Shown here in pieces: positions 33,139 to 61,125 of a stretch of DNA of 61,125 nucleotides. Source of the stretch: Cytophagales bacterium (GTDB lineage Bacteria; Bacteroidota; Bacteroidia; Cytophagales; Cyclobacteriaceae). How positions within the stretch are numbered: the stretch's first letter is position 1; every line of letters starts with the position of its first letter. A program made the translations under genes and the position numbers. Location of the stretch: positions 1-61,125 of the forward strand of contig JADBYQ010000034.1 in NCBI GenBank assembly GCA_020402945.1, given 5' to 3'. The notes under the pieces were generated by a model that saw only the letters and a list, made by a program, of their open reading frames with translations, was not told the origin of the DNA and searched no databases.

Positions 33139-34572
33139 CTATTCTAGCGGTTTATCCTTATCAGGATTTGGCTTGTTTGGATTGCGATTAGGGTTGTTAG
33201 GGTTGCGGTTGGGATTATTTTGATTGCGATTAGGGTTCGGGTTGTTGGGATTGCGGTTAGGATTTTGATTCCTATTTGGATTATTGCGATTTGGGTTATT
33301 TTGATTCCTATTTCGATTAGGATTTTGATCGTTATTCGGTTTATTTGGATTGCCACCTTGCGGCTTTTGCTGCGCGGGTTTTGGTGAGTTACCCTCTCGC
33401 GCTTGATTGTTACTCCTATTGTCTCGGTTTCCGCGGTCATCGCGCCCACGTCCTCTTCTGTCGTTATTCTTGTTGGCTTTGTTTTTGAATTTGCGATCCA
33501 TGCTAGCTAAATCGCTATTGAGCACACTTAAAGGAGCACGAACTTCTTCTTTGTCAATTTGCAGTGTTGCCGGTTTCTTGCCCTCTTTATTCAACGCCAA
33601 TATTTCATTGACGCGATCCACATTCAGCGGATACCAGTTGTTATCTTCTTTATAGCCAAACCACATGATCTTCCTAAAGATGTCCGTTTTTTGCAATCGG
33701 GCTTCGCCTTGCTCTGTCAGCAGTGGCGCCTCCACTTCGGGGATGTACTTCAGCGCATCCATGTAGGTCTCCAACTCATAATTCAGGCAGCATTTCAAAC
33801 GCCCACATTGACCAGACAGTTTGCTCGGATTGAGAGACAGATTTTGATAACGAGCAGCGCTTGTCGCCACATTTTTAAAATCACTAAGCCAAGTGGAACA
33901 ACACAACTCGCGACCGCAAACACCAATGCCACCTAAACGGCCTGCCTCTTGGCGGAGGCTGATTTGTCGCATCTCTACGCGCACTTTAAATTCTCCAGCT
34001 AACTGTTTTATCAATTCGCGAAAGTCGACACGATCCTCCGCAGAATAAAAGAAAGTTGCTTTGGTATTGTCGGCCTGGTATTCAACATCAGAGAGCTTCA
34101 TTGCTAGCTTGTACTGTTTCACTATCTCGCGAGAGCGATAGAGCGTAGGAGCGGCTCGCTTTTTCGTTTCTTCGTATTTTTCTAAGTCGCGTTGATGCGC
34201 TATGCGGTAAATTTTCTTGATCTCCTCATCGTTAGCGACCTTCTTCTTTTGCATTTGAAGGCGCACCAATTCGCCTTGCAGGGAGACATGCCCTAAATGA
34301 TGCCCTGACTGTGTCTCGACAATAATGGCATCACCTGTTGTCAGTAAGAGATTTCCCGTATTGCGATAAAAATCCTTTCGGCCACTTTTGAATCGTACTT
34401 CGACCACGTCAAAGCGATCCTGTACCGGCATATCCATATTCGACAGCCAGTCGAATACATTCATCTTATTACATCCCCCGGTGCCACAAGCACCGTTATT
34501 ATTGCAACCGGAAACCTTTCCTGCCTGTCCGGCAGGCAGGCCGTCCTTCTTTGTTCCACAAGCACAGCCCAT
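33139..34572 (-). CDS. ricT: RicT/PSP1-domain protein with Asn/Pro/Arg-rich tail
   Basis: 477 aa. After a Cys-rich N-terminus (MGCACGTKK, then CNNNGACGTGGC) comes the PSP1 domain, with YRNTGNLLLTTGDAIIVET, IGVCGRELCCSTWL and GQCGRLKCCLNYE supplying Cys pairs that bind an iron-sulfur cluster in the RicAFT complex of Bacillus. The last about 110 residues are low complexity, made of NPNRN/NNPNRN units. Seven codons (LPAGQAG) between D10 and K18 come from a palindromic insertion (34520-34540). It precedes gldH on the same strand. Confidence 0.85.
   Translation of the reverse strand: MGCACGTKKDGLPAGQAGKVSGCNNNGACGTGGCNKMNVFDWLSNMDMPVQDRFDVVEVRFKSGRKDFYRNTGNLLLTTGDAIIVETQSGHHLGHVSLQGELVRLQMQKKKVANDEEIKKIYRIAHQRDLEKYEETKKRAAPTLYRSREIVKQYKLAMKLSDVEYQADNTKATFFYSAEDRVDFRELIKQLAGEFKVRVEMRQISLRQEAGRLGGIGVCGRELCCSTWLSDFKNVATSAARYQNLSLNPSKLSGQCGRLKCCLNYELETYMDALKYIPEVEAPLLTEQGEARLQKTDIFRKIMWFGYKEDNNWYPLNVDRVNEILALNKEGKKPATLQIDKEEVRAPLSVLNSDLASMDRKFKNKANKNNDRRGRGRDDRGNRDNRSNNQAREGNSPKPAQQKPQGGNPNKPNNDQNPNRNRNQNNPNRNNPNRNQNPNRNPNNPNPNRNQNNPNRNPNNPNRNPNKPNPDKDKPLE
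34520..34540. repeat. In-frame 21-bp palindromic insertion in ricT
   Basis: Plus-strand arms CCTGCCTG (34520-34527) and CAGGCAGG (34533-34540) pair perfectly around TCCGG. In the gene it codes for LPAGQAG and fills exactly seven codons. A related copy lies at 40733-40753. Confidence 0.8.
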
Positions 34573-34682
34573 CGTTTAAGATATTGATTAGAAGGTTAAA
34601 GGTAGCGCGTTAGATGGGTAAAGGCAAGGGGTTATTTCCTTCTGAAAGTTATTGGATTCAAGGGTCTAGGTTAGAAATAAAT

Positions 34683-35957
34683 TCACATCAAATCCTTCCC
34701 TATATCCCACCTGTAATAAACACCGTCCCAGTTAATTTTTTCTGCGGCTGCATAAGCATTGGCTTGTGCTGCTTTCAATGTTTTTCCCTTGCCCGTAATA
34801 CCCAACACACGGCCCCCATCGGTTAACACCTCATTGTTCTGCTTTTTTGTTCCGGCATGGAATACCAACGCACCAGTAGCTTCTTCTAAGCCGCTTATCG
34901 TTTTACCTTTTTCATATTCATCAGGGTAGCCATCAGAAGCCACAACAATGGTCAACGCAAAATTGGGATCCACCGCGATGGTCTTGTCTTTCAATTCGCC
35001 CTTGGCTGCAGCAAGAAGCAATTCTAGAAAATCACTTTGAATGCGCGCCATCACCGACTGCGTTTCCGGATCGCCCATGCGCGTATTGTATTCAATCACA
35101 TACGGCTCGCTTCTTACGTTCATCAGCCCAACAAAAATAAATCCTTTGAAGGGAATTTGCTCTTTCTTTAATCCTGCAATGGTGGGTTTGATTACTTCCT
35201 CCTCCACTTTTTTCATGAACGCTGCATCGGCAAAAGGCACAGGAGAAACAGAGCCCATGCCTCCTGTATTTGGCCCCGTGTCGCCATCGCCAATGCGTTT
35301 GTAATCTTTTGCCTCTGGTAAAATCACATAATCCTCACCATCAGTCAACACAAAAACAGAAAGCTCAATACCATTTAAGAATTCTTCTACTAACACCTTC
35401 GCGCTGGCTTCGCCAAATTTTTTATCTTCCAACATTTCGCGCATCGTGGCTTTCGCTTCGGCCTCGTCAGATGTGATGATGACTCCCTTTCCTGCTGCCA
35501 ATCCATCGGCTTTTAAAACATACGGAGGCTGGCATGTCTCAAGGTAACTTGCTGCATCCGCAAATTGATTTGCATAAAACGTTCTTGCCTTCGCAGTAGG
35601 TACACCGTTACGCAACATGAATTGCTTTGAAAAATCCTTGCTGCCTTCCAGTTGTGCACCTGCCTTACCTGGCCCTACCATCAAAATCGATTTCAATTTC
35701 GGATCAGCCTCAAAATAATCGCGGATACCATTTACCAGAGGAACTTCTGGACCAACTACAACTAATTCAATTCTATTGTCAACGCAGAATGCCCCCAATT
35801 TTTCAAATTCGCTCACCCCAATCGATACATTCTCCGCAACCATTGAAGTTCCAGCATTACCAGGCGCGACAAATAGCCGCTCGCACAATGGGCTTTGTTT
35901 GATTTTCCAGGCGAGTGCATGTTCGCGACCACCGTTGCCGATCAGAAGGATGTTCAT
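34683..35957 (-). CDS. purD: Phosphoribosylamine-glycine ligase
   Basis: 424 aa, full length. N-terminal GNGGREHALAWKI, the ATP-grasp segments VLKADGLAAGKGV and LVEEFLNGIELSV, and NTRMGDPETQ are diagnostic of PurD (GAR synthetase), the second step of purine synthesis. It stands alone between ricT and recQ, with a perfect recQ terminator 54 bp upstream of its start, so it probably has its own promoter. Confidence 0.96.
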   Translation of the reverse strand: MNILLIGNGGREHALAWKIKQSPLCERLFVAPGNAGTSMVAENVSIGVSEFEKLGAFCVDNRIELVVVGPEVPLVNGIRDYFEADPKLKSILMVGPGKAGAQLEGSKDFSKQFMLRNGVPTAKARTFYANQFADAASYLETCQPPYVLKADGLAAGKGVIITSDEAEAKATMREMLEDKKFGEASAKVLVEEFLNGIELSVFVLTDGEDYVILPEAKDYKRIGDGDTGPNTGGMGSVSPVPFADAAFMKKVEEEVIKPTIAGLKKEQIPFKGFIFVGLMNVRSEPYVIEYNTRMGDPETQSVMARIQSDFLELLLAAAKGELKDKTIAVDPNFALTIVVASDGYPDEYEKGKTISGLEEATGALVFHAGTKKQNNEVLTDGGRVLGITGKGKTLKAAQANAYAAAEKINWDGVYYRWDIGKDLM

Positions 35958-36010
35958 AGTAAAAGATAAGCGTCAAATATAAGTTGGAATTGACAAAAGT
36001 TCTAAGAAAA

Positions 36011-36041
36011 AAGCCCTTTGAATGTAACATTCAAAGGGCTT
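36011..36041 (-). terminator. Rho-independent terminator of recQ
   Basis: Perfect 14-bp inverted repeat AAGCCCTTTGAATG / CATTCAAAGGGCTT with a 3-base loop; on the minus strand it is followed by TTTTTTCTT. It lies 20 bp past the recQ stop. Confidence 0.85.
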
Positions 36042-36061
36042 ATCAATTCTTTTACAAAAAG

Positions 36062-38245
36062 TTAATTTGCGTACTCGCTCAAAAATTTGATGCGCATCAA
36101 ACGAACATCATCTTCCGATTGATCCGTCAAGGTTGCCATCGCCTCTTCCATGCTATCGGTCTCCGAATTTAGGAAGTAGTCATAGATCTCTTCTTGCTTA
36201 TTGTCATCCAGCACTTCATCGATGTAATAGTCAATCGTAAGTTTTGTGCCGGAGTAGCAAATATTTTCCATCTCCGTCAACAGCTCATCAAAGGTCAAAC
36301 TCTTTGACTCGGCTATCTCTTCCAAATCCACCTTGCGATCAATTTGTTGGATGATGAATATTTTTATTTTTGATTTATTGACCGAAGACTTCACAACCAC
36401 CTCAGAGGCAGTCTCGATATCATTTTCATCTACATATTTTTCAATTAGCTCAATGAATTCCTTACCAAACTTATTCACCTTACCCATGCCTACCCCATTC
36501 ACCGAAGCCAACTCTTCTTTGTTGGTCGGATAGGTCGTTGCCATTTCTTCCAAAGAAGGATCTTGGAAAATGACATAGGGTGGCAAGTCTTTTTCTTTGG
36601 CGATCTTCTTGCGAAGCGCCTTCAGCATCTCGAACAATTTTACATCGTAGGACTTTGAGTTGATAATCACCCGCTCAGATGATTCCTCTTCGCCTACTTC
36701 TGTACTGAAATCATGATCTCTGGCGAGTTCGATGGAATGTGGCTTCTTGAGGAAGGCATGACCCTTCTCCGTGATTTTCAACACCCCGATGTTTTCAATA
36801 TCCTTTTCTAAATATTGATAGATCAGTGCCTGACGAATAACCGCCTTCCAGAAATCGGCATCTTCCGTATCGCCTTTGCCATAGATAGCCAAATCAAAAT
36901 GGCCATAGCTCTTCACGTACTCATCTTCGGTGCCGCGAATCACATTTACCAAGTGTGGAAGTCCAAATCGCTCACTCGTCTGTTTAACTGCTTCAATAGC
37001 AATCTTAACGGAATCCATACCTTCAAACCTCTCTCGTGGATTCATACAATTGTCGCACGCGCCACAATTGGTTTCTTTATATTCTTCACCAAAGTAATGG
37101 AGAAGTTGCTTCCGCCTACAAACAGGCGACTCGGCATAAAACTCCATCTCCTGTAATAAAATGCGCGCGTTCTCTCGCTCTTGTACAGACTTGTCTTTGT
37201 TAAACTTCTCTAATTTGTTCAAGTCGTTATGACTATAGAACATCAGGCAAATGCCTTCCAAACCATCGCGACCTCCGCGTCCGGTTTCTTGGTAATATCC
37301 TTCCAGTGATTTGGGAACATCGTAGTGCACAACAAACCTAACATCCGGTTTATCAATACCCATTCCAAATGCAATGGTAGCTGTAATAATGTCGACTTCC
37401 TCATTCAAAAAATCATCTTGATTTTTCATGCGCACATCCGGATCTAAACCAGCATGGTAAGGTGCTGCCTTAAATCCATTTACGTTCAACAACTGCGCAA
37501 TCTCTTCTACTTTTTTGCGGCTGAGGCAATAGATGATTCCTGATTTCCCTTTGTGTTCTTTTAAAAAGCGAATGAGTTGCTTTTTAGTCTCCTTTTTGGG
37601 GCGTACTTCGTAATATAAATTTTTGCGATTGAACGAAGACAAGAAAACGTCTGCGTCTTCCATCTGCAAATTCTTCTGAATATCTAACTGAACTTTTGGC
37701 GTAGCGGTAGCTGTCAGAGCGATGACTGACTTTTTGCCAAGCTGCCCAATCATGGTCTTAATCCTGCGATACTCCGGGCGAAAATCATGACCCCACTCTG
37801 AAATACAATGAGCCTCATCGATGGCAACAAAAGAAACATTTACTTTTTGCAAAAATTCAATGTTCTCCTCTTTATTCAGTGATTCGGGTGCTACATACAA
37901 AAGCTTTACCAACCCCGACACGCAATCCTTCTTAAGTTTTGTTATTTCTCCTTTACTGAGTGTTGAATTCAAAAATCTCGCATTCACTCCATATGCGTTC
38001 ATCTGATCTACCTGATTCTTCATCAGCGCGATCAATGGTGATATCACGATGGCCAAGCCATCGTACATCATCGCGGGAAGTTGATAACATAGGGATTTGC
38101 CCGCCCCGGTGGGCATGATTACAAACGTGTTCCTCCCTGTAAGAATATTTCTGATTACAACCTCTTGATTTCCCCTGAAATTTCCGTAGCCGAATATTTC
38201 CTTGAGTTTTGCCTTTAGTTCGTCTTTCTCTTCTGCCACTACCAT
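36062..38245 (-). CDS. recQ: ATP-dependent DNA helicase RecQ
   Basis: 727 aa. The helicase core has Walker A MPTGAGKSLCYQ, the DEAH box in VAIDEAHCISEWGHDF and ATIAFGMGIDKPDVR; the zinc-binding RQC Cys are in CRRKQLL and NCGACDNC; an HRDC domain (residues about 530-600) is followed by an extra C-terminal domain with a helix-turn-helix-like DEEIYDYF region. It unwinds DNA 3' to 5' in recombination and repair. Divergent from the manC-type gene, which lies 260 bp upstream; that gap is AT-rich and shows no gene. Confidence 0.95.
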   Translation of the reverse strand: MVVAEEKDELKAKLKEIFGYGNFRGNQEVVIRNILTGRNTFVIMPTGAGKSLCYQLPAMMYDGLAIVISPLIALMKNQVDQMNAYGVNARFLNSTLSKGEITKLKKDCVSGLVKLLYVAPESLNKEENIEFLQKVNVSFVAIDEAHCISEWGHDFRPEYRRIKTMIGQLGKKSVIALTATATPKVQLDIQKNLQMEDADVFLSSFNRKNLYYEVRPKKETKKQLIRFLKEHKGKSGIIYCLSRKKVEEIAQLLNVNGFKAAPYHAGLDPDVRMKNQDDFLNEEVDIITATIAFGMGIDKPDVRFVVHYDVPKSLEGYYQETGRGGRDGLEGICLMFYSHNDLNKLEKFNKDKSVQERENARILLQEMEFYAESPVCRRKQLLHYFGEEYKETNCGACDNCMNPRERFEGMDSVKIAIEAVKQTSERFGLPHLVNVIRGTEDEYVKSYGHFDLAIYGKGDTEDADFWKAVIRQALIYQYLEKDIENIGVLKITEKGHAFLKKPHSIELARDHDFSTEVGEEESSERVIINSKSYDVKLFEMLKALRKKIAKEKDLPPYVIFQDPSLEEMATTYPTNKEELASVNGVGMGKVNKFGKEFIELIEKYVDENDIETASEVVVKSSVNKSKIKIFIIQQIDRKVDLEEIAESKSLTFDELLTEMENICYSGTKLTIDYYIDEVLDDNKQEEIYDYFLNSETDSMEEAMATLTDQSEDDVRLMRIKFLSEYAN

Positions 38246-38505
38246 AATACCTTGTAATAAAGTTCTGTTTTAAGTTTTTTAGGAAATTGAAGATAATAAA
38301 AAAAATCCGACAAGAAGCAAAGCATGTAGGATATAAATGATTATTGCATAATTACCCTATAACGAAGAATTCACTCATTAGTGCTACAAACGGAAAAATT
38401 GTTTGATCACTGGCTATTTGCGTGTGTGGCAACGTTTGCACCCGGTTAAAGATTCACGATAGTTCACTATTTTAGCGGTTTAAAATCTATAACGGCTATT
38501 TTCGA

Positions 38506-39582
38506 ATGAATACAAATCTTTTTGTGGTATTGATGGCAGGTGGAGTTGGAACCAGATTTTGGCCCTATAGCCGAAATGCCAAGCCAAAACAGTTTTTGGA
38601 TGTAGTCGGAACAGGAAAAACGCTTCTTCAATCAACCTATGACCGCTTTTTGCCCATTTGCCCACCCGAAAATATTTTTGTGGTCACGCATGAAGAGCAT
38701 CGTATGTTGACAAAGGAACAGTTGCCTTCACTATCTGAATCACAAATATTGGCGGAGCCCATGAGAAAGAACACAGCACCCTGTATTCTCTATGCTTGCC
38801 ATAAGATCTCTAAGATCAATCCGCAAGCCGTGGTAGTAGTGAGCCCGACAGATCATCTTATTCTAAACGAATCTGACTTTCAACAGACTATCCTCAAATC
38901 TGCCGAACAGGCAAAAAACCAGGATAAGCTGATAACACTAGGTATTAAGCCCTCGAGACCTGAAACCGGCTATGGCTACATCCAGTACATCGAAAACAAA
39001 AGCACTTTAAAAAAGGTCAAAACCTTTACGGAGAAACCAGAGTTAGCCTTGGCAAACAAGTTTTTAGAAAGCGGTGATTTCGTCTGGAATGCGGGCATTT
39101 TTATTTGGGGTGTGCAGGCAATTCATCATGCTTTTGCTAAGTACTTGCCTGAAATGACTGAGATCTTTGACGAGGCAGCACCAAGCATCTCCACCGATGA
39201 TGAAAAGCAGGCAATACAAGCGGCCTACTCGCAAACCAAGAATATTTCCATTGACTATGCCATCATGGAAAAAGCGGACAACGTTTACGTTTGGCTGAGT
39301 CAATTCGCTTGGTCGGATTTAGGATCGTGGGGATCGTTGTATGAATATTCAGCCAAAGACTCGAACAACAATGTGATTGGCGTGGATGCGCTTACCTATG
39401 AAACGCGTAACTCAATTATAAAAGGTGATGCGAATAAGTTGGTTGTTACACAGGGCCTCAACGGCTACTTGGTAGGCGCTTTTGGCAACGTGGTGATCGT
39501 ATGCGAAAAAGATAAGGAAGACCTTTTTCGAAAATTTGTGAACGACCTGAAGAGCAAACCAAACAGTAGCGATTACTTGTAG
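38506..39582 (+). CDS. Mannose-1-phosphate guanylyltransferase
   Basis: 358 aa. The nucleotide-binding signature GGVGTRFWPYSRNAKPKQFL and the sugar-binding VKTFTEKPE and NAGIFIWGV segments match the short (guanylyltransferase-only) ManC/ManB type. It makes GDP-mannose from GTP and mannose 1-phosphate, used for polysaccharides and glycoproteins. No C-terminal isomerase domain is fused. Its 3' end overlaps the convergent rlmB stop by 10 bp. Confidence 0.92.
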   Translation: MNTNLFVVLMAGGVGTRFWPYSRNAKPKQFLDVVGTGKTLLQSTYDRFLPICPPENIFVVTHEEHRMLTKEQLPSLSESQILAEPMRKNTAPCILYACHKISKINPQAVVVVSPTDHLILNESDFQQTILKSAEQAKNQDKLITLGIKPSRPETGYGYIQYIENKSTLKKVKTFTEKPELALANKFLESGDFVWNAGIFIWGVQAIHHAFAKYLPEMTEIFDEAAPSISTDDEKQAIQAAYSQTKNISIDYAIMEKADNVYVWLSQFAWSDLGSWGSLYEYSAKDSNNNVIGVDALTYETRNSIIKGDANKLVVTQGLNGYLVGAFGNVVIVCEKDKEDLFRKFVNDLKSKPNSSDYL

Positions 39583-40313
39583 TCTCTCTGCCTAATTTTC
39601 TCGTAAACAACAATTCCTGCGGCAACGGATACGTTTAGCGATTCTATACTTCCCATCAATGGAATTTTAGCGAGGTGATCAGCATCCTTTAACATCTGTG
39701 GTGAAATACCGTCTTCTTCAGACCCCAGTATAATCGCTACTGGTGTGTTCAAATCAATTTGATAGATCGTGTTAGTAGCCTTCTCAGTACAGGCGATAAT
39801 TTGAATGCCATTGTCTTTCAACAATTGAAATGTTTTCTTCATATCCTTCACGCGGCAAACGGGCAGATGATTGAGCGCACCGGCTGATGTCTTCATCGCA
39901 TCGCCTGTAATGGGCGCATTTCCTTTGTCGGCAATGATCATCGCATCCACTTGTGCGCACTCCGCGGTACGCGCCAATGCTCCAAAATTGCGAACGTCAG
40001 TAACTCTATCAACGATCAAAAAAAACGGCTCGCGACCTTCGCTGTAACATTTATCAATAATGTTTTCAAGTGGAACATATTGAACCGCAGACAACACACA
40101 AACAACTCCCTGGTGATTTTTATTGGAAAGCCGGTCTAGTTTAACTTGCGGAATAAATGAATAGGGAGCTTTATGAGTAGCCGCTGTATTGATTAGCTCC
40201 TTTATCAAATCGTTATTTAGCCCAGATTGAATATAAATCTTTTCAATCTCACGCCCGGCCTTGATGGCCTCAATCACGGCACGCGTACCAAAAATTGTTT
40301 CTGCTTTTTCCAT
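39573..40313 (-). CDS. rlmB: 23S rRNA (guanosine-2'-O-)-methyltransferase RlmB (SpoU family)
   Basis: 246 aa. The N-terminal substrate-binding domain (EKAETIFGTRAVIEAI) is followed by a SPOUT domain with RNFGALARTAECAQVDA, ILGSEEDGISPQ and PLMGSIESLNVSVAAG, the three SpoU motifs. RlmB methylates G2251 of 23S rRNA. The family also holds other TrmH-like enzymes, so target specificity is inferred from the FGTRAVIEAI start. Confidence 0.9.
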   Translation of the reverse strand: MEKAETIFGTRAVIEAIKAGREIEKIYIQSGLNNDLIKELINTAATHKAPYSFIPQVKLDRLSNKNHQGVVCVLSAVQYVPLENIIDKCYSEGREPFFLIVDRVTDVRNFGALARTAECAQVDAMIIADKGNAPITGDAMKTSAGALNHLPVCRVKDMKKTFQLLKDNGIQIIACTEKATNTIYQIDLNTPVAIILGSEEDGISPQMLKDADHLAKIPLMGSIESLNVSVAAGIVVYEKIRQRDYK

Positions 40314-40400
40314 ACAAATAAAAAGAATATACGAGTTAGAATTAAGGAGTCAGAATCTTAGCCTATCGACTACAGATTACCGAAAACCAGCAACCGATCA

Positions 40401-41330
40401 CTACCACAACCTTGCCGGATATACACCACTCTCTACTAGTTGTTTTATTTTGCTTGACACTTCCTCTTTGTCTTCTTTATAGGTCACTCCAAACCAGGTT
40501 TTGCCACCCCCCAAAATATGAACCTTGCCCAGATTCTGCCTGATGACTTCATTTGTCAATAGCGCAATGTAAAATTCTGCCGAGGGGTTTTCTTTGTTTT
40601 TCTCTGCAAATTCGTGAAACATCTTTTCAGCAACCGCAAACACACCTGGTTGAAAGCCCCAGCAATTCATAGAAACGGGGAACAACGGATCTAGTTCACG
40701 ATCACCGGTATCCTCTTTAGAAATAATTTTTCCCTGCCCGTCCGGCAGGCGGGCATCTTCTTTTACAATTTTTGTAAGCTCACTCAGCTTCTTCAAAAAT
40801 CCCTGCGCATCTCGTTCTTCTGCTACTCCGCGCGACACACTACCATGTTCTGACAACACATTTTTTAATGTGTATCCTACCATGGCGTGATGATCGGGTG
40901 CTGCCGTGTCAAAAAAAGTAGACAGGGATTCAAAAGCTTCCTTGCCATAAAAGTCATCTGCATTGATCACGGCAAACGGCTCGTTGATAACGTCTTTGCC
41001 ACAAAGCATGGCATGCGTGGTTCCCCACGGTTTTTTACGATTCACTGGCCCATAATTTTGAGGAACAAATCGATCCAGCGATTGTACCTCAAAGTAAACT
41101 TCCACCTTTCCTTTTAGTTTGGGGAGAAATATCTCTTCTACTGTTGATTTAATCTCATCGCGCACGATGAAAACCACCTTTGCAAACCCAGCACGAATCG
41201 CGTCATACAGCGAATAGTCCATGATGGTTTCTCCACTAGGGCCAAATCCATCAATTTGCTTTATTCCACCATACCGACTACCCATGCCCGCGGCCATAAC
41301 CAACAAGCTTTTTGATTTTTTTACTGCCAT
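40401..41330 (-). CDS. Sugar-phosphate nucleotidyltransferase
   Basis: 309 aa. The N-terminal VMAAGMGSRYGGIKQID and AVINADDFYG (metal-binding Asp) mark the RfbA/GalU-type fold; the substrate is unknown. Around residue 198 the sequence DARLPDGQGK is coded by a copy of the palindrome also found in ricT, adding about seven residues to a surface loop. No C-terminal hexapeptide domain is present. Upstream lies the divergent sugar transporter. Confidence 0.85.
   Translation of the reverse strand: MAVKKSKSLLVMAAGMGSRYGGIKQIDGFGPSGETIMDYSLYDAIRAGFAKVVFIVRDEIKSTVEEIFLPKLKGKVEVYFEVQSLDRFVPQNYGPVNRKKPWGTTHAMLCGKDVINEPFAVINADDFYGKEAFESLSTFFDTAAPDHHAMVGYTLKNVLSEHGSVSRGVAEERDAQGFLKKLSELTKIVKEDARLPDGQGKIISKEDTGDRELDPLFPVSMNCWGFQPGVFAVAEKMFHEFAEKNKENPSAEFYIALLTNEVIRQNLGKVHILGGGKTWFGVTYKEDKEEVSSKIKQLVESGVYPARLW
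40732..40753. repeat. In-frame palindromic insertion in the nucleotidyltransferase gene
   Basis: CCTGCCCG, TCCGG and CAGGCGGG (40733-40753, preceded by one more C) match the ricT palindrome at 34520-34540 except for one base in each arm. Here the reading phase is different, giving RLPDGQG instead of LPAGQAG. Confidence 0.75.
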
Positions 41331-57702: not shown

Positions 57703-58287
57703 ATGAATTTCCATCCCAACTCCATTTATCATGTTTACAACCGCGGCAACAACAAACAAAATATTTTTTTTGAAAAGAGAAACTATGACTACTTTATTAA
57801 AAAAATTGAACTGGAATTGACTCCAATTTGCGATGTCCTTGCCTATTGTCTAATGCCAAATCATTTTCACCTGTTGATTTATGTTCCGGAAAAAACAATG
57901 GGACTTAACTTACTGACGAACCAAAGTCAACAATTCTTAGTACGGAAGTTCGGTACTATCCAGAGTTCCTATTGTCAGGCAATCAACAAACAAGAAAACA
58001 GAACTGGCTCCTTATTTCAGCAGAAAACGAAAGCGAAACTTCTAAACACTGATTGTTACATCCTTACCTGCTTTTATTACATTCATCAAAATCCTTTGAA
58101 AGCCAAACTTGTTAAAAAAATGGAAGAATGGACACATTCATCATTCAAAGATTATCTTGCAGAAACTTCCGCACTTTGCAAGATTTCAACAGCAAGAGAA
58201 TTGATTCAAATTCCTTTAGGGAAAGAGGATTTCTATAAAGAGTCACACAAAATGATCGAGCCAGATTTAATAAAAAGTATTTTTTAG
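57703..58287 (+). mobile_element. RAYT (REP-associated tyrosine transposase), first copy
   Basis: 194 aa. N-terminal IYHVYNRGNN; the HUH motif is in CLMPNHFHLLIY; the nucleophile Tyr is expected in CYILTCFYYIHQNP. This is a Y1 transposase of the IS200-like TnpA_REP class, which is usually domesticated and associated with REP hairpins. It is flanked by hairpins that overlap the kynU stop (57660-57692) and its own stop (58285-58307), and it sits between kynU and kmo. It is not related closely enough by eye to the second RAYT to be a recent copy. Confidence 0.9.
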
Positions 58288-59667: not shown

Positions 59668-59683
59668 GGCCGCTCGCTCGTCA

Positions 59684-60223
59684 AGCATCGTCTCCGCCTC
59701 GGGACGATGCTAACCACGCTTGCCCAACTTTCTTGTAGCTGCCAAAGATAACTCCGCCTTGGGACGATGCCAACCGCTCAGCTAGAATGTGAAGGTGCAG
59801 AAGTAAATTTGTTCTTCGCTCGTCAAGCATCGTCTCCGCCTCGGGACGATGCTAAACACGCTTGCCCAACTTTCTTGTAGCTGCCTAAGATAACTCCGCC
59901 TCGGGACGATGCCAACCGCTCAGCTAAACTTCGACTGCAAAGTCAAGCATCGTCTCCGCCTCGGGACGGTGCTAACCACGCTTGCCCAACTTTCTTGTAG
60001 CTGCCAAAAATAATTTCTTATCTCCGGAACGTTACCCTATTTTTTAGATAGTCAAGCATCGTCTCCGCCTCGGGACGATGCTAAGCTCAACCACGCTTGC
60101 CCAACTTTCATGTAGCCGTCAAAAACTATAACATTCAAGCATCGTCTCCACTTTGGGACGATGCTGAAGCTATAGCGTTGGCGGGTAGATAGTCAAGCAT
60201 CGTCTCCGCCCCGGGACGATGCT
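59684..60223 (+). repeat. REP array of six hairpin copies and two half copies
   Basis: Full copies of AGCATCGTC, a TCCGCCTCGG-like loop and GACGATGCT are at 59684-59711, 59826-59853, 59946-59973, 60055-60082, 60138-60165 and 60196-60223, all in the same orientation. Half copies lacking the left arm lie at about 59752-59770 and 59894-59912. Five full copies are followed by a conserved tail with ACGCTTGCCCAACTTTC and TGTAGC. The 624 bp between kmo and the second RAYT hold no other gene. The array belongs with the RAYT at 60292-60867 (a seventh copy lies on its other side). Confidence 0.9.
59787..59814. repeat. 28-bp relic of the RAYT 5' coding end inside the array
   Basis: These 28 bases match 60810-60837 exactly; the latter codes near the start of the second RAYT (EQIYFCTF). 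It is a remnant of the transposase or of an imprecise copying event. Confidence 0.8.
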
Positions 60224-60291
60224 AAGCTCAACCACGCTTGCCCAACTTTCATGTAGCCGTCAAAAACTATTTCATATTTCCGGAACCTTAT

Positions 60292-60867
60292 CTATCTTTT
60301 AGTACCCACATCTTTGTAATGAGTTATCTCTATTTTAGGATGCACCAAATTTAGCTCGTAAAAAGCCGCGCTAGAATGAAGATACTTTTCCGCTGAATCC
60401 GCCAGTCGCCATTTTCCGGTAACTGGATTTGCATGAATGTATTCCAATTTTTGTAAAAGAAACTTATCAGAATAGCATGGCTTGATATCAGACGACACTT
60501 CAAATACACGGTGTCTTTTGCTTCTTTTTCTTTCACTTGACGTAACATGGCTCGCAAGTATTTGCAAAATATCTTCTCGATTTTTGGTCTCTAATCTTCT
60601 TACAATCTCGTAAGCAAGGAACCTTTTGCCATTGCCAAGTATTGTGTTAATAGTACTTTTATCTTCTGCAAGATAGATGATCATGTGTAGGTGGTTGGGC
60701 ATAATCACAAAACCGATTATCTGGTGATTCCTTTTTTTAAGAATATCAAACCACTTATATATTTCATCATACAAATCGGTGATCTTGAACAAATGCATCC
60801 ATTCTAAGCATGTGAAGGTGCAGAAGTAAATTTGTTCCCTTTCTGGTTGAGTGAGCTTGATTGCCAT
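60292..60867 (-). mobile_element. RAYT (REP-associated tyrosine transposase), second copy
   Basis: 191 aa from the ATG at 60867 (MAIKLTQPEREQIYFCTFT); an upstream start at 60900 is possible. The HUH motif is in VIMPNHLHMIIY; the nucleophile Tyr is in LEYIHANPVTG. It belongs to the TnpA_REP group and is surrounded by the REP copies of the array (59684-60223) and one at 60954-60981. RAYTs bind such hairpins to move or amplify them. No terminal inverted repeats of a conventional insertion sequence are evident. Confidence 0.88.
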
Positions 60868-60953
60868 GAACCAAAAATAGTAAATCTGTTTCCTATTCAT
60901 CGCCCCGAAGCATTTCTTACGCTTCTATGCGAATTTAATACTCCTACCTCTCA

Positions 60954-60981
60954 AGCATCGTCTCTGCCTCAGGACGATGCT
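60954..60981 (+). repeat. Seventh REP copy, upstream of the second RAYT
   Basis: AGCATCGTC (60954-60962) and GACGATGCT (60973-60981) match the array copies exactly in the arms. It lies 87 bp before the RAYT start. Confidence 0.85.
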
Positions 60982-61125
60982 AATCTTAAACCCAGATTAC
61001 GCATTAGAGAATTGAAAGGGGAAGGAGACTGAATTCGATTGGTTCCAAAGTCCCTTGCACCATTCCCTTCTTTTCATGTTCAATGCTAGTTTGAGAGTGA
61101 ATTGGCCCCCTATTTTTTCAAAGTA

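Follow-up and report, generated by a model that had tools for sequence, protein, structure and literature searches.

A GC-rich palindrome of 21 bp, found in frame within two unrelated protein genes of a Cytophagales bacterium (GenBank assembly GCA_020402945.1), is very probably a non-autonomous miniature mobile element, that is, a hairpin mobilised in trans whose surviving coding copies are 21 bp long and lie mostly in one reading phase. Both genes are located in the 61,125-nucleotide stretch of DNA analysed here (contig JADBYQ010000034.1, positions 1 to 61,125; hereafter the window). The genome to which it belongs (4.38 Mb in 136 contigs; G000) carries dispersed copies of the palindrome which, compared with empty sites in related genomes, represent precise gains of 21 bp, show no visible target duplication, follow a purine and are biased in phase and length; insertion appears to have continued after closely related species split. 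The features of the window concerned are as follows.

33139..34572, minus strand: host gene 1, RicT family protein of 477 amino acids (NCBIfam NF041131 RicT_YaaT_fam, E 2.8e-80)
34520..34540, minus strand: copy 1 of the palindromic element, in ricT; gene strand CCTGCCTGCCGGACAGGCAGG, read as G-LPAGQAG
40401..41330, minus strand: host gene 2, nucleotidyltransferase-like protein of 309 amino acids (name assigned by eye; no NCBIfam model matched at E 1e-20)
40733..40753, minus strand: copy 2 of the palindromic element, a CCCG-type variant, in the nucleotidyltransferase-like gene; gene strand CCCGCCTGCCGGACGGGCAGG, read as ARLPDGQ

Copy 1, CCTGCCTGTCCGGCAGGCAGG, consists of two perfect 8-bp arms with a 5-nt centre between them, and its position, arms and peptide LPAGQAG were found just as a preliminary description of this DNA had given them. 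Copy 2, CCTGCCCGTCCGGCAGGCGGG, lies where that description placed it and differs from copy 1 by one change in each arm as it said, with the refinements that the gene reads ARLPDGQ instead of RLPDGQG and that the two changes, at element positions 7 and 19, do not affect pairing partners. Indexing the arms in this way ruled out a compensatory change; six of the eight arm pairs are kept, and copy 2 is a less perfect palindrome than copy 1. Both copies are read on the minus strand, in phase 2 in ricT and in phase 1 in the nucleotidyltransferase gene, which agrees with the two different phases proposed beforehand. The claim that no frame of either strand contains a stop codon was likewise confirmed, and extends to the junction codons NNC, NCC, GGN and GNN, which cannot be stops. 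No match to the palindrome at up to three mismatches arose in 100 dinucleotide shuffles of the window, and a comparison of the window's frames with the genomes G012 and G025, which included spurious frames and non-orthologous matches near 44-49 kb, revealed no additional palindromic indel of four codons or more. As a separate observation on ricT, the C-terminus of its product (window 33161-33343) is a degenerate Asn/Pro/Arg repeat run that is mirrored in overlapping DNA repeats.

The genome-wide search suggested by the preliminary description, which knew of two copies, revealed about 35 places. The 21-mer with up to three mismatches gave 34 strand rows in G000, corresponding to 28 places after both strands and one overlapping register had been collapsed, with none for the reversed-pattern control, and a search with the arms CCTGCC/GGCAGG and a free centre added at least seven further places of 20 bp each; a 16-bp match on contig C49 was left out of the count. 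The total of at least 35 places comprises 20 in protein genes (long open frames), 11 in degenerate tRNA copies and four in intergenic DNA. As two of the coding places (L004 and L016) both fall within valine-tRNA ligase, the 20 coding places correspond to 19 genes. Profile matches identified the hosts as alanine-, valine-, glycine- and aspartate-tRNA ligase, phosphoglucosamine mutase, RicT, glutamate synthase, Hsp90, a class I tRNA ligase (L016), argininosuccinate synthase, an RNB-domain ribonuclease, ribosomal protein L17, Sua5/YrdC, MutS, an amidohydrolase and a tricorn-type protease, while four hosts (L006, which is the window's nucleotidyltransferase, L009, L010 and L013) gave no profile match at the cut-offs used. 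An AlphaFold2 run on one host protein alone gave a mean pLDDT of 37. Two of the four intergenic copies, which are unlinked (L014 near 1501 and L122 near 1506), are nested at the identical point of another dispersed repeat, GTCAGACTGAG^CTTGTCGAAGTC.

Orthologues of the 20 coding places were taken from up to four genomes of the same genus, and at 18 of these places exactly seven codons (21 bp) are absent from at least one relative. In all, at least 17 different genes have received the palindrome without being broken, with seven amino acids added each time. When filled and empty sites are set side by side, the bases flanking the element run on uninterrupted in the empty site and no target duplication is visible, a one-base duplication being possible at some sites. 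In ricT, an exact seven-residue gap was found in 23 of 30 same-genus loci, with an empty site of the type GACGG^AAAGG; the other seven are the own locus, that of G025, in which six residues are left, and five in which the gap is 5 or 6. The nucleotidyltransferase showed an exact seven-residue gap in 26 of 30 loci, is filled in G000, G025 and G010, and has a gap of eight in one. These sets are the best 30 of 54 (ricT) and the best 30 of 41 (nucleotidyltransferase) matches, the own locus included, and lean to close relatives because the best-matching loci were taken. The residues are missing from most of the relatives examined in both proteins, as the preliminary description had anticipated, and neither of the two findings it regarded as fatal to its proposal, namely the same residues in all relatives or a genome devoid of further copies, was obtained.

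The same comparison bears on the timing of insertion. In the sister genome G025, 13 of the 20 coding sites are filled as in G000 (one of them short by a codon) and five are empty; of the remaining sites, L008 has the uninserted form in G025, and at L026 that point is empty, and the same protein carries a further copy close by. The genome G010, in which 11 of the 20 sites were covered, has two filled and nine empty. The five sites empty in G025 and the nine in G010 suggest that insertion continued while closely related species split. In the amidohydrolase-family protein, the palindrome stands at two different points in different genomes (L164 on contig C91 of G025, versus L026), and this protein has therefore been hit at least twice.

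The base immediately 5′ of the element, in the orientation CCTGCCTGCCGG, was tabulated for 120 exact copies from GTDB contigs (all counts of GTDB copies given here refer to the matches listed) and is G in 78, A in 36, C in five and T in one, so that a purine is present in 114 of the 120. That this is not a protein effect follows from the 43 copies outside open frames of at least 150 codons, which share the preference (G 29, A 11, C 2, T 1; purine in 40 of 43). At the remaining flank positions of the 120 copies no base rises above ∼50%, and some bases are under-represented on the far side. On the gene strand, a purine likewise precedes 18 of the 20 own coding copies, and as most of the empty sites shown already have it, we read the purine as a target preference rather than as a part of the element.

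Because the gain is precise and without duplication, the sequence has the form of a hairpin and the target preference concerns a single base, we propose that an enzyme acting in trans inserts the element as a single-stranded hairpin. According to this model, a GC-rich element of ∼20-22 bp that can fold as a hairpin would be copied to new places by a protein acting in trans, and would insert 3′ of a purine, leaving no target-site duplication, into protein genes, duplicated tRNA sequences and intergenic DNA. Copies that survive in protein genes would have a length of 21 bp, or seven codons, and would mostly be oriented and phased so as to encode LPAGQAG, LPAGKAG or peptides close to these.

Seventeen of the 20 coding copies in G000 are in phase 2, two in phase 1 and one in phase 0 (binomial p 3e-6 versus one third). 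Of the phase-2 peptides, 14 are LPxG(Q/K)AG or a one-residue variant thereof, the other three being LPDRQAG, LSARQAG and PPDGRAG. All three out-of-phase copies belong to the CCCG-type variant, whose readings RLPDGQ and PARPAGG are without the Cys expected there from the main form; a fourth CCCG-type copy (L025) is in phase 2. Length is biased as well, since all 20 coding copies measure 21 bp, versus eight of 15 non-coding copies with 21 bp and seven with 20 bp (Fisher p 0.001, hand counts), the 20-bp copies of G000 being found in tRNA remnants. Selection in the form of reading-frame filtering would explain both biases simply. The element had been described as ‘adapted’ to insertion within genes; its survival there without stops is borne out, but adaptation itself is not established, because stop-free survival in frame can be pure filtering and 20-bp, frame-shifting copies exist outside protein genes. 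Open frames of 150 codons or more, some of which will be spurious, contain 77 of the 120 GTDB copies, with 46 in phase 2, 18 in phase 0 and 13 in phase 1. Twenty-one of these 77 read LPAGQAG and 17 LPAGKAG, so that the recurrence of such peptides in Bacteroidota, which the preliminary description had mentioned, proved correct and reaches beyond this phylum. In two other genomes (L357 on contig C20 of G039 and L358 on contig C12 of G009), the CCCG-type variant was seen twice within one Met/Asp-rich open frame, where it is read as PARPSGG.

The copies outside protein genes are concentrated in tRNA remnants. Partial and diverged tRNA copies with the palindrome adjoin intact tRNA genes on contigs C8 (L367), C57 (L363), C60 (L365), C100 (L364) and C114 (L125 and L366), and on contigs C29 (L362) and C102 (L124) such tRNA-like copies lie near the contig end with no intact tRNA gene in the stretch examined. 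Eight comparisons were made with an intact tRNA, and in five of them (L362, L364, L367, L125 and L369 of genome G041) the difference across the element is only a gap of 20 or 21 bp; of the other three, two (L363 and L365) can be aligned on one side and the third (L366) has diverged further. As ARAGORN called a tRNA at only two of 12 element places in their present form, and at one of 12 after the flanks had been joined, the description of these copies as degenerate tRNA-like sequences rests on the alignments with intact tRNAs. Two of the tRNA-like sites are tandem arrays, one of 85 bp (tRNA-Leu-like) and one of 112 bp (tRNA-Met-like), the latter with a second palindrome, TCCGCCTNNGGCGGA. For the GTDB copies, ARAGORN detected a tRNA in the locus of 16 of the 120, with a flank matching it in two of those 16, and the concentration in tRNA sequences is therefore so far seen in this genus only.

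Matches with three or fewer mismatches occur in 47 genomes of a set of 96 relatives, the own genome included, the control being 0 in all. Copy number is patchy: high-copy genomes of the genus are G000, G011, G018, G025, G041, G042 and G044, and 18 of the 58 same-genus genomes are without the element. Across the phylum, an exact match was found in 15 of 198 genomes (own included; reversed-pattern control 0 of 198), and a scan of GTDB contigs yielded an exact match in at least 116 stretches. The 80 titled ones, counted as stretches and not as genomes, are from Bacteroidota (34), Patescibacteria (22), Omnitrophota (10), unnamed lineages (four) and others (10), six of them from isolates. A cultured environmental strain with the element is Marinoscillum furvescens DSM 4134. 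In Patescibacteria, MurB (L221) and mannose-1-phosphate guanylyltransferase (L289) have the element where solved homologues show a seven-residue gap; RsmI of a Yanofskybacterium (L225) was uninformative at this site. The motif was also present in 31 stretches of viral contigs, where the longest frames over it are unreliable. Horizontal spread would account for the identical copies in different phyla.

Several findings weigh against a mobile hairpin. No mobilising enzyme was found, no transposition was observed, and RAYT-type genes are unlinked to the copies. Nor does the model account for the concentration of the element in tRNA remnants. Two of the 20 coding sites are without a clean seven-codon gain, L008 being a replacement with a net change of two codons and L009 having extra indels. 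At the sites shared by G000 and G025, furthermore, the element differs at eight of 249 positions versus 229 of 2631 in the flanks (p 0.0015; L008 and L024 left out), a lower divergence that could reflect constraint or homogenisation, or that may be a selection bias because the copies were chosen for their likeness to the consensus. An autonomous version was not obvious in six regions with close copies, where only the frames covering the copies were read; the paired copies there occupy one and the same gene (L357, L358), occur in short frames (L356) or are single within a frame.

Alternatively, the palindrome might be a classical repetitive extragenic palindromic (REP) element, moved by a RAYT (TnpA-REP, a Y1 transposase) and merely located inside genes. 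It is of the same size class and hairpin form, but no GTAG or other conserved tag stands beside it in the flanks of the 120 GTDB copies. RAYT-type genes do occur in the own genome (five PF01797 matches) and in 49 of the 58 same-genus genomes, and element rows and PF01797 matches show a weak positive correlation (Spearman 0.28, p 0.035; 58 genomes, kinship uncorrected); however, no PF01797 match was found in G018 (97% complete) despite its 31 element rows, and G050 has eight PF01797 matches and no element. An element copy lies near one of 34 RAYT loci (L217), whereas a RAYT-type gene was found, with a profile from 16 seeds, in one of 116 GTDB element loci, in none of 31 viral and in none of 29 own loci. 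We therefore regard this explanation as doubtful.

A short signal, such as a DNA uptake, Chi-like or methylation site, that is maintained by point mutation and selection and never inserted could also be short, exact, dispersed and patchy, but the whole 21-bp block is missing from relatives at 18 of the 20 coding sites, which refutes an origin by point mutation and makes this explanation highly improbable; a signalling role may have been acquired after insertion. No more credible is a useful protein linker under selection, in which LPAGQAG would act as such in proteins: the predominance of one phase (17 of 20 coding copies, 14 of them LPxG(Q/K)AG-like) would suit it, but the same DNA is also read in other phases (RLPDGQ, PARPAGG) and is present in tRNA remnants and intergenic DNA, the hosts are very different proteins, and the ricT copy of G025 is one codon shorter. 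An artefact of assembly or binning, brought to mind by the fact that most titled GTDB records with the element are metagenome-assembled genomes and several own copies lie at contig ends, can practically be dismissed in view of the 13 of 20 coding sites that are filled in an independently listed sister genome, the exact copies in six titled isolates and the matches in the single-contig genomes G042 and G024.

The mobile hairpin acting through a protein in trans is thus our preferred explanation. Beyond this, it is conceivable, if somewhat short of probable, that it represents an unrecognised class of hairpin-only mobile DNA that measures 20-22 bp, lacks a tag, long terminal repeats and a linked transposase, crosses phyla and enters both protein genes and duplicated tRNA sequences 3′ of a purine; its mobiliser would come from an enzyme family that REP-type elements have not so far been connected with. 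Its 21-bp form would persist in coding sequence because it is stop-free in six frames, junction codons included.

Two further repeats were observed. A second palindrome family, TCCGCCT..GGCGGA, gave 25 strand rows in G000 and 134 in the sister genome G025, with a control of 0 (for example L435-L451); it was rejected as an instance of the same phenomenon, the longest frames over it having 27-139 codons and many copies sharing longer flanks in the loci read. In the window, a 39-nt repeat with the arms GCATCGTC/GACGATGC occurs nine times at 59681-60989. It lies downstream of a frame (57703-58287) that weakly resembles Y1 transposases, with a PF01797 match (E 6.8e-4) that falls below the cut-off.

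Judging from the excerpts of the literature used here, palindromes that code for protein have so far been mainly a Rickettsia subject. The present element is a seven-codon unit in proteins such as tRNA ligases, Hsp90, MutS and ribosomal protein L17, young enough for sister species to differ, and makes two questions testable now, namely the copying of a hairpin of ∼21 bp with neither a linked transposase nor a target duplication, and how often short selfish DNA gives conserved proteins new loops. It also carries a practical warning, since environmental proteins in which LPAGQAG or LPAGKAG appears as a block probably owe it to a DNA insertion. No paper on the peptides LPAGQAG, PAGQAG, LPAGKAG or LPAGRQAG was found in the open-licence literature, and, judged by titles and abstract openings, the element is not described in the open-licence papers found on palindromic elements, RAYT and coding palindromes, which deal with Rickettsia elements, tagged REPs and enterobacterial repeats.

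The excerpts of the papers cited below allow a comparison with known systems. A likeness in principle to Rickettsia palindromic elements (RPEs) had been proposed in the preliminary description and is largely supported: both are in-frame palindromes in unrelated protein genes, presumed mobile by an enzyme that is unknown (PMC10969869, PMC3733652), and in-frame insertion of the RPE type was found here at 20 places in 19 genes, 18 of them with an exact seven-codon empty site. The likeness does not extend to length, as RPEs are described as having ∼100-150 bp and longer encoded peptides (PMC10969869), whereas the present element has 21 bp or seven codons and occurs in Bacteroidota and other phyla, and in tRNA remnants too. 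Target-site duplication, a hallmark of miniature inverted-repeat transposable elements (MITEs) and insertion sequences, is not visible for the present element, and instead of the origin by point mutation that marks DNA uptake sequences, a 21-bp block was gained at 18 of the 20 coding sites. The GC clusters and double-hairpin elements of fungal mitochondria are also short, GC-rich, mobile palindromes in AT-richer DNA, some of them in coding genes, but they are organellar, larger and of other sequence. CGTC-tagged REPs, which include RPE-4 and RPE-6 of R. conorii and dRS3 of Neisseria, are reported to have a stem of 8-9 bp and a loop of 4-5 nt, to occur also in Bacteroidetes, to be unlinked to transposase genes and to form mostly head-to-head dimers (PMC3733652). 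The present element shares their dimensions (8-bp arms, 5-nt centre), the copies within genes and the lack of transposase linkage, but has no CGTC tag, a stem that starts with CC and not with AT pairs, no CCA-like tail and mostly single places. GTAG-tagged REPs and REPINs with their RAYT are likewise short multi-copy palindromes, some inside genes (PMC3733652), from which the present element differs in having no GTAG tag, no RAYT linkage and a mostly coding rather than extragenic location (20 of 35 places in protein genes). Enterobacterial RU/ERIC-like repeats in genes resemble it as small mobile sequences read through as parts of proteins, and are described as MITE-like and 103-168 bp long (PMC2759123). 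The element thus behaves like RPEs, from which it differs by its much smaller length, the absence of a tag and its presence in several phyla, and it departs from GTAG REPs, CGTC REPs and MITEs in features that define them.

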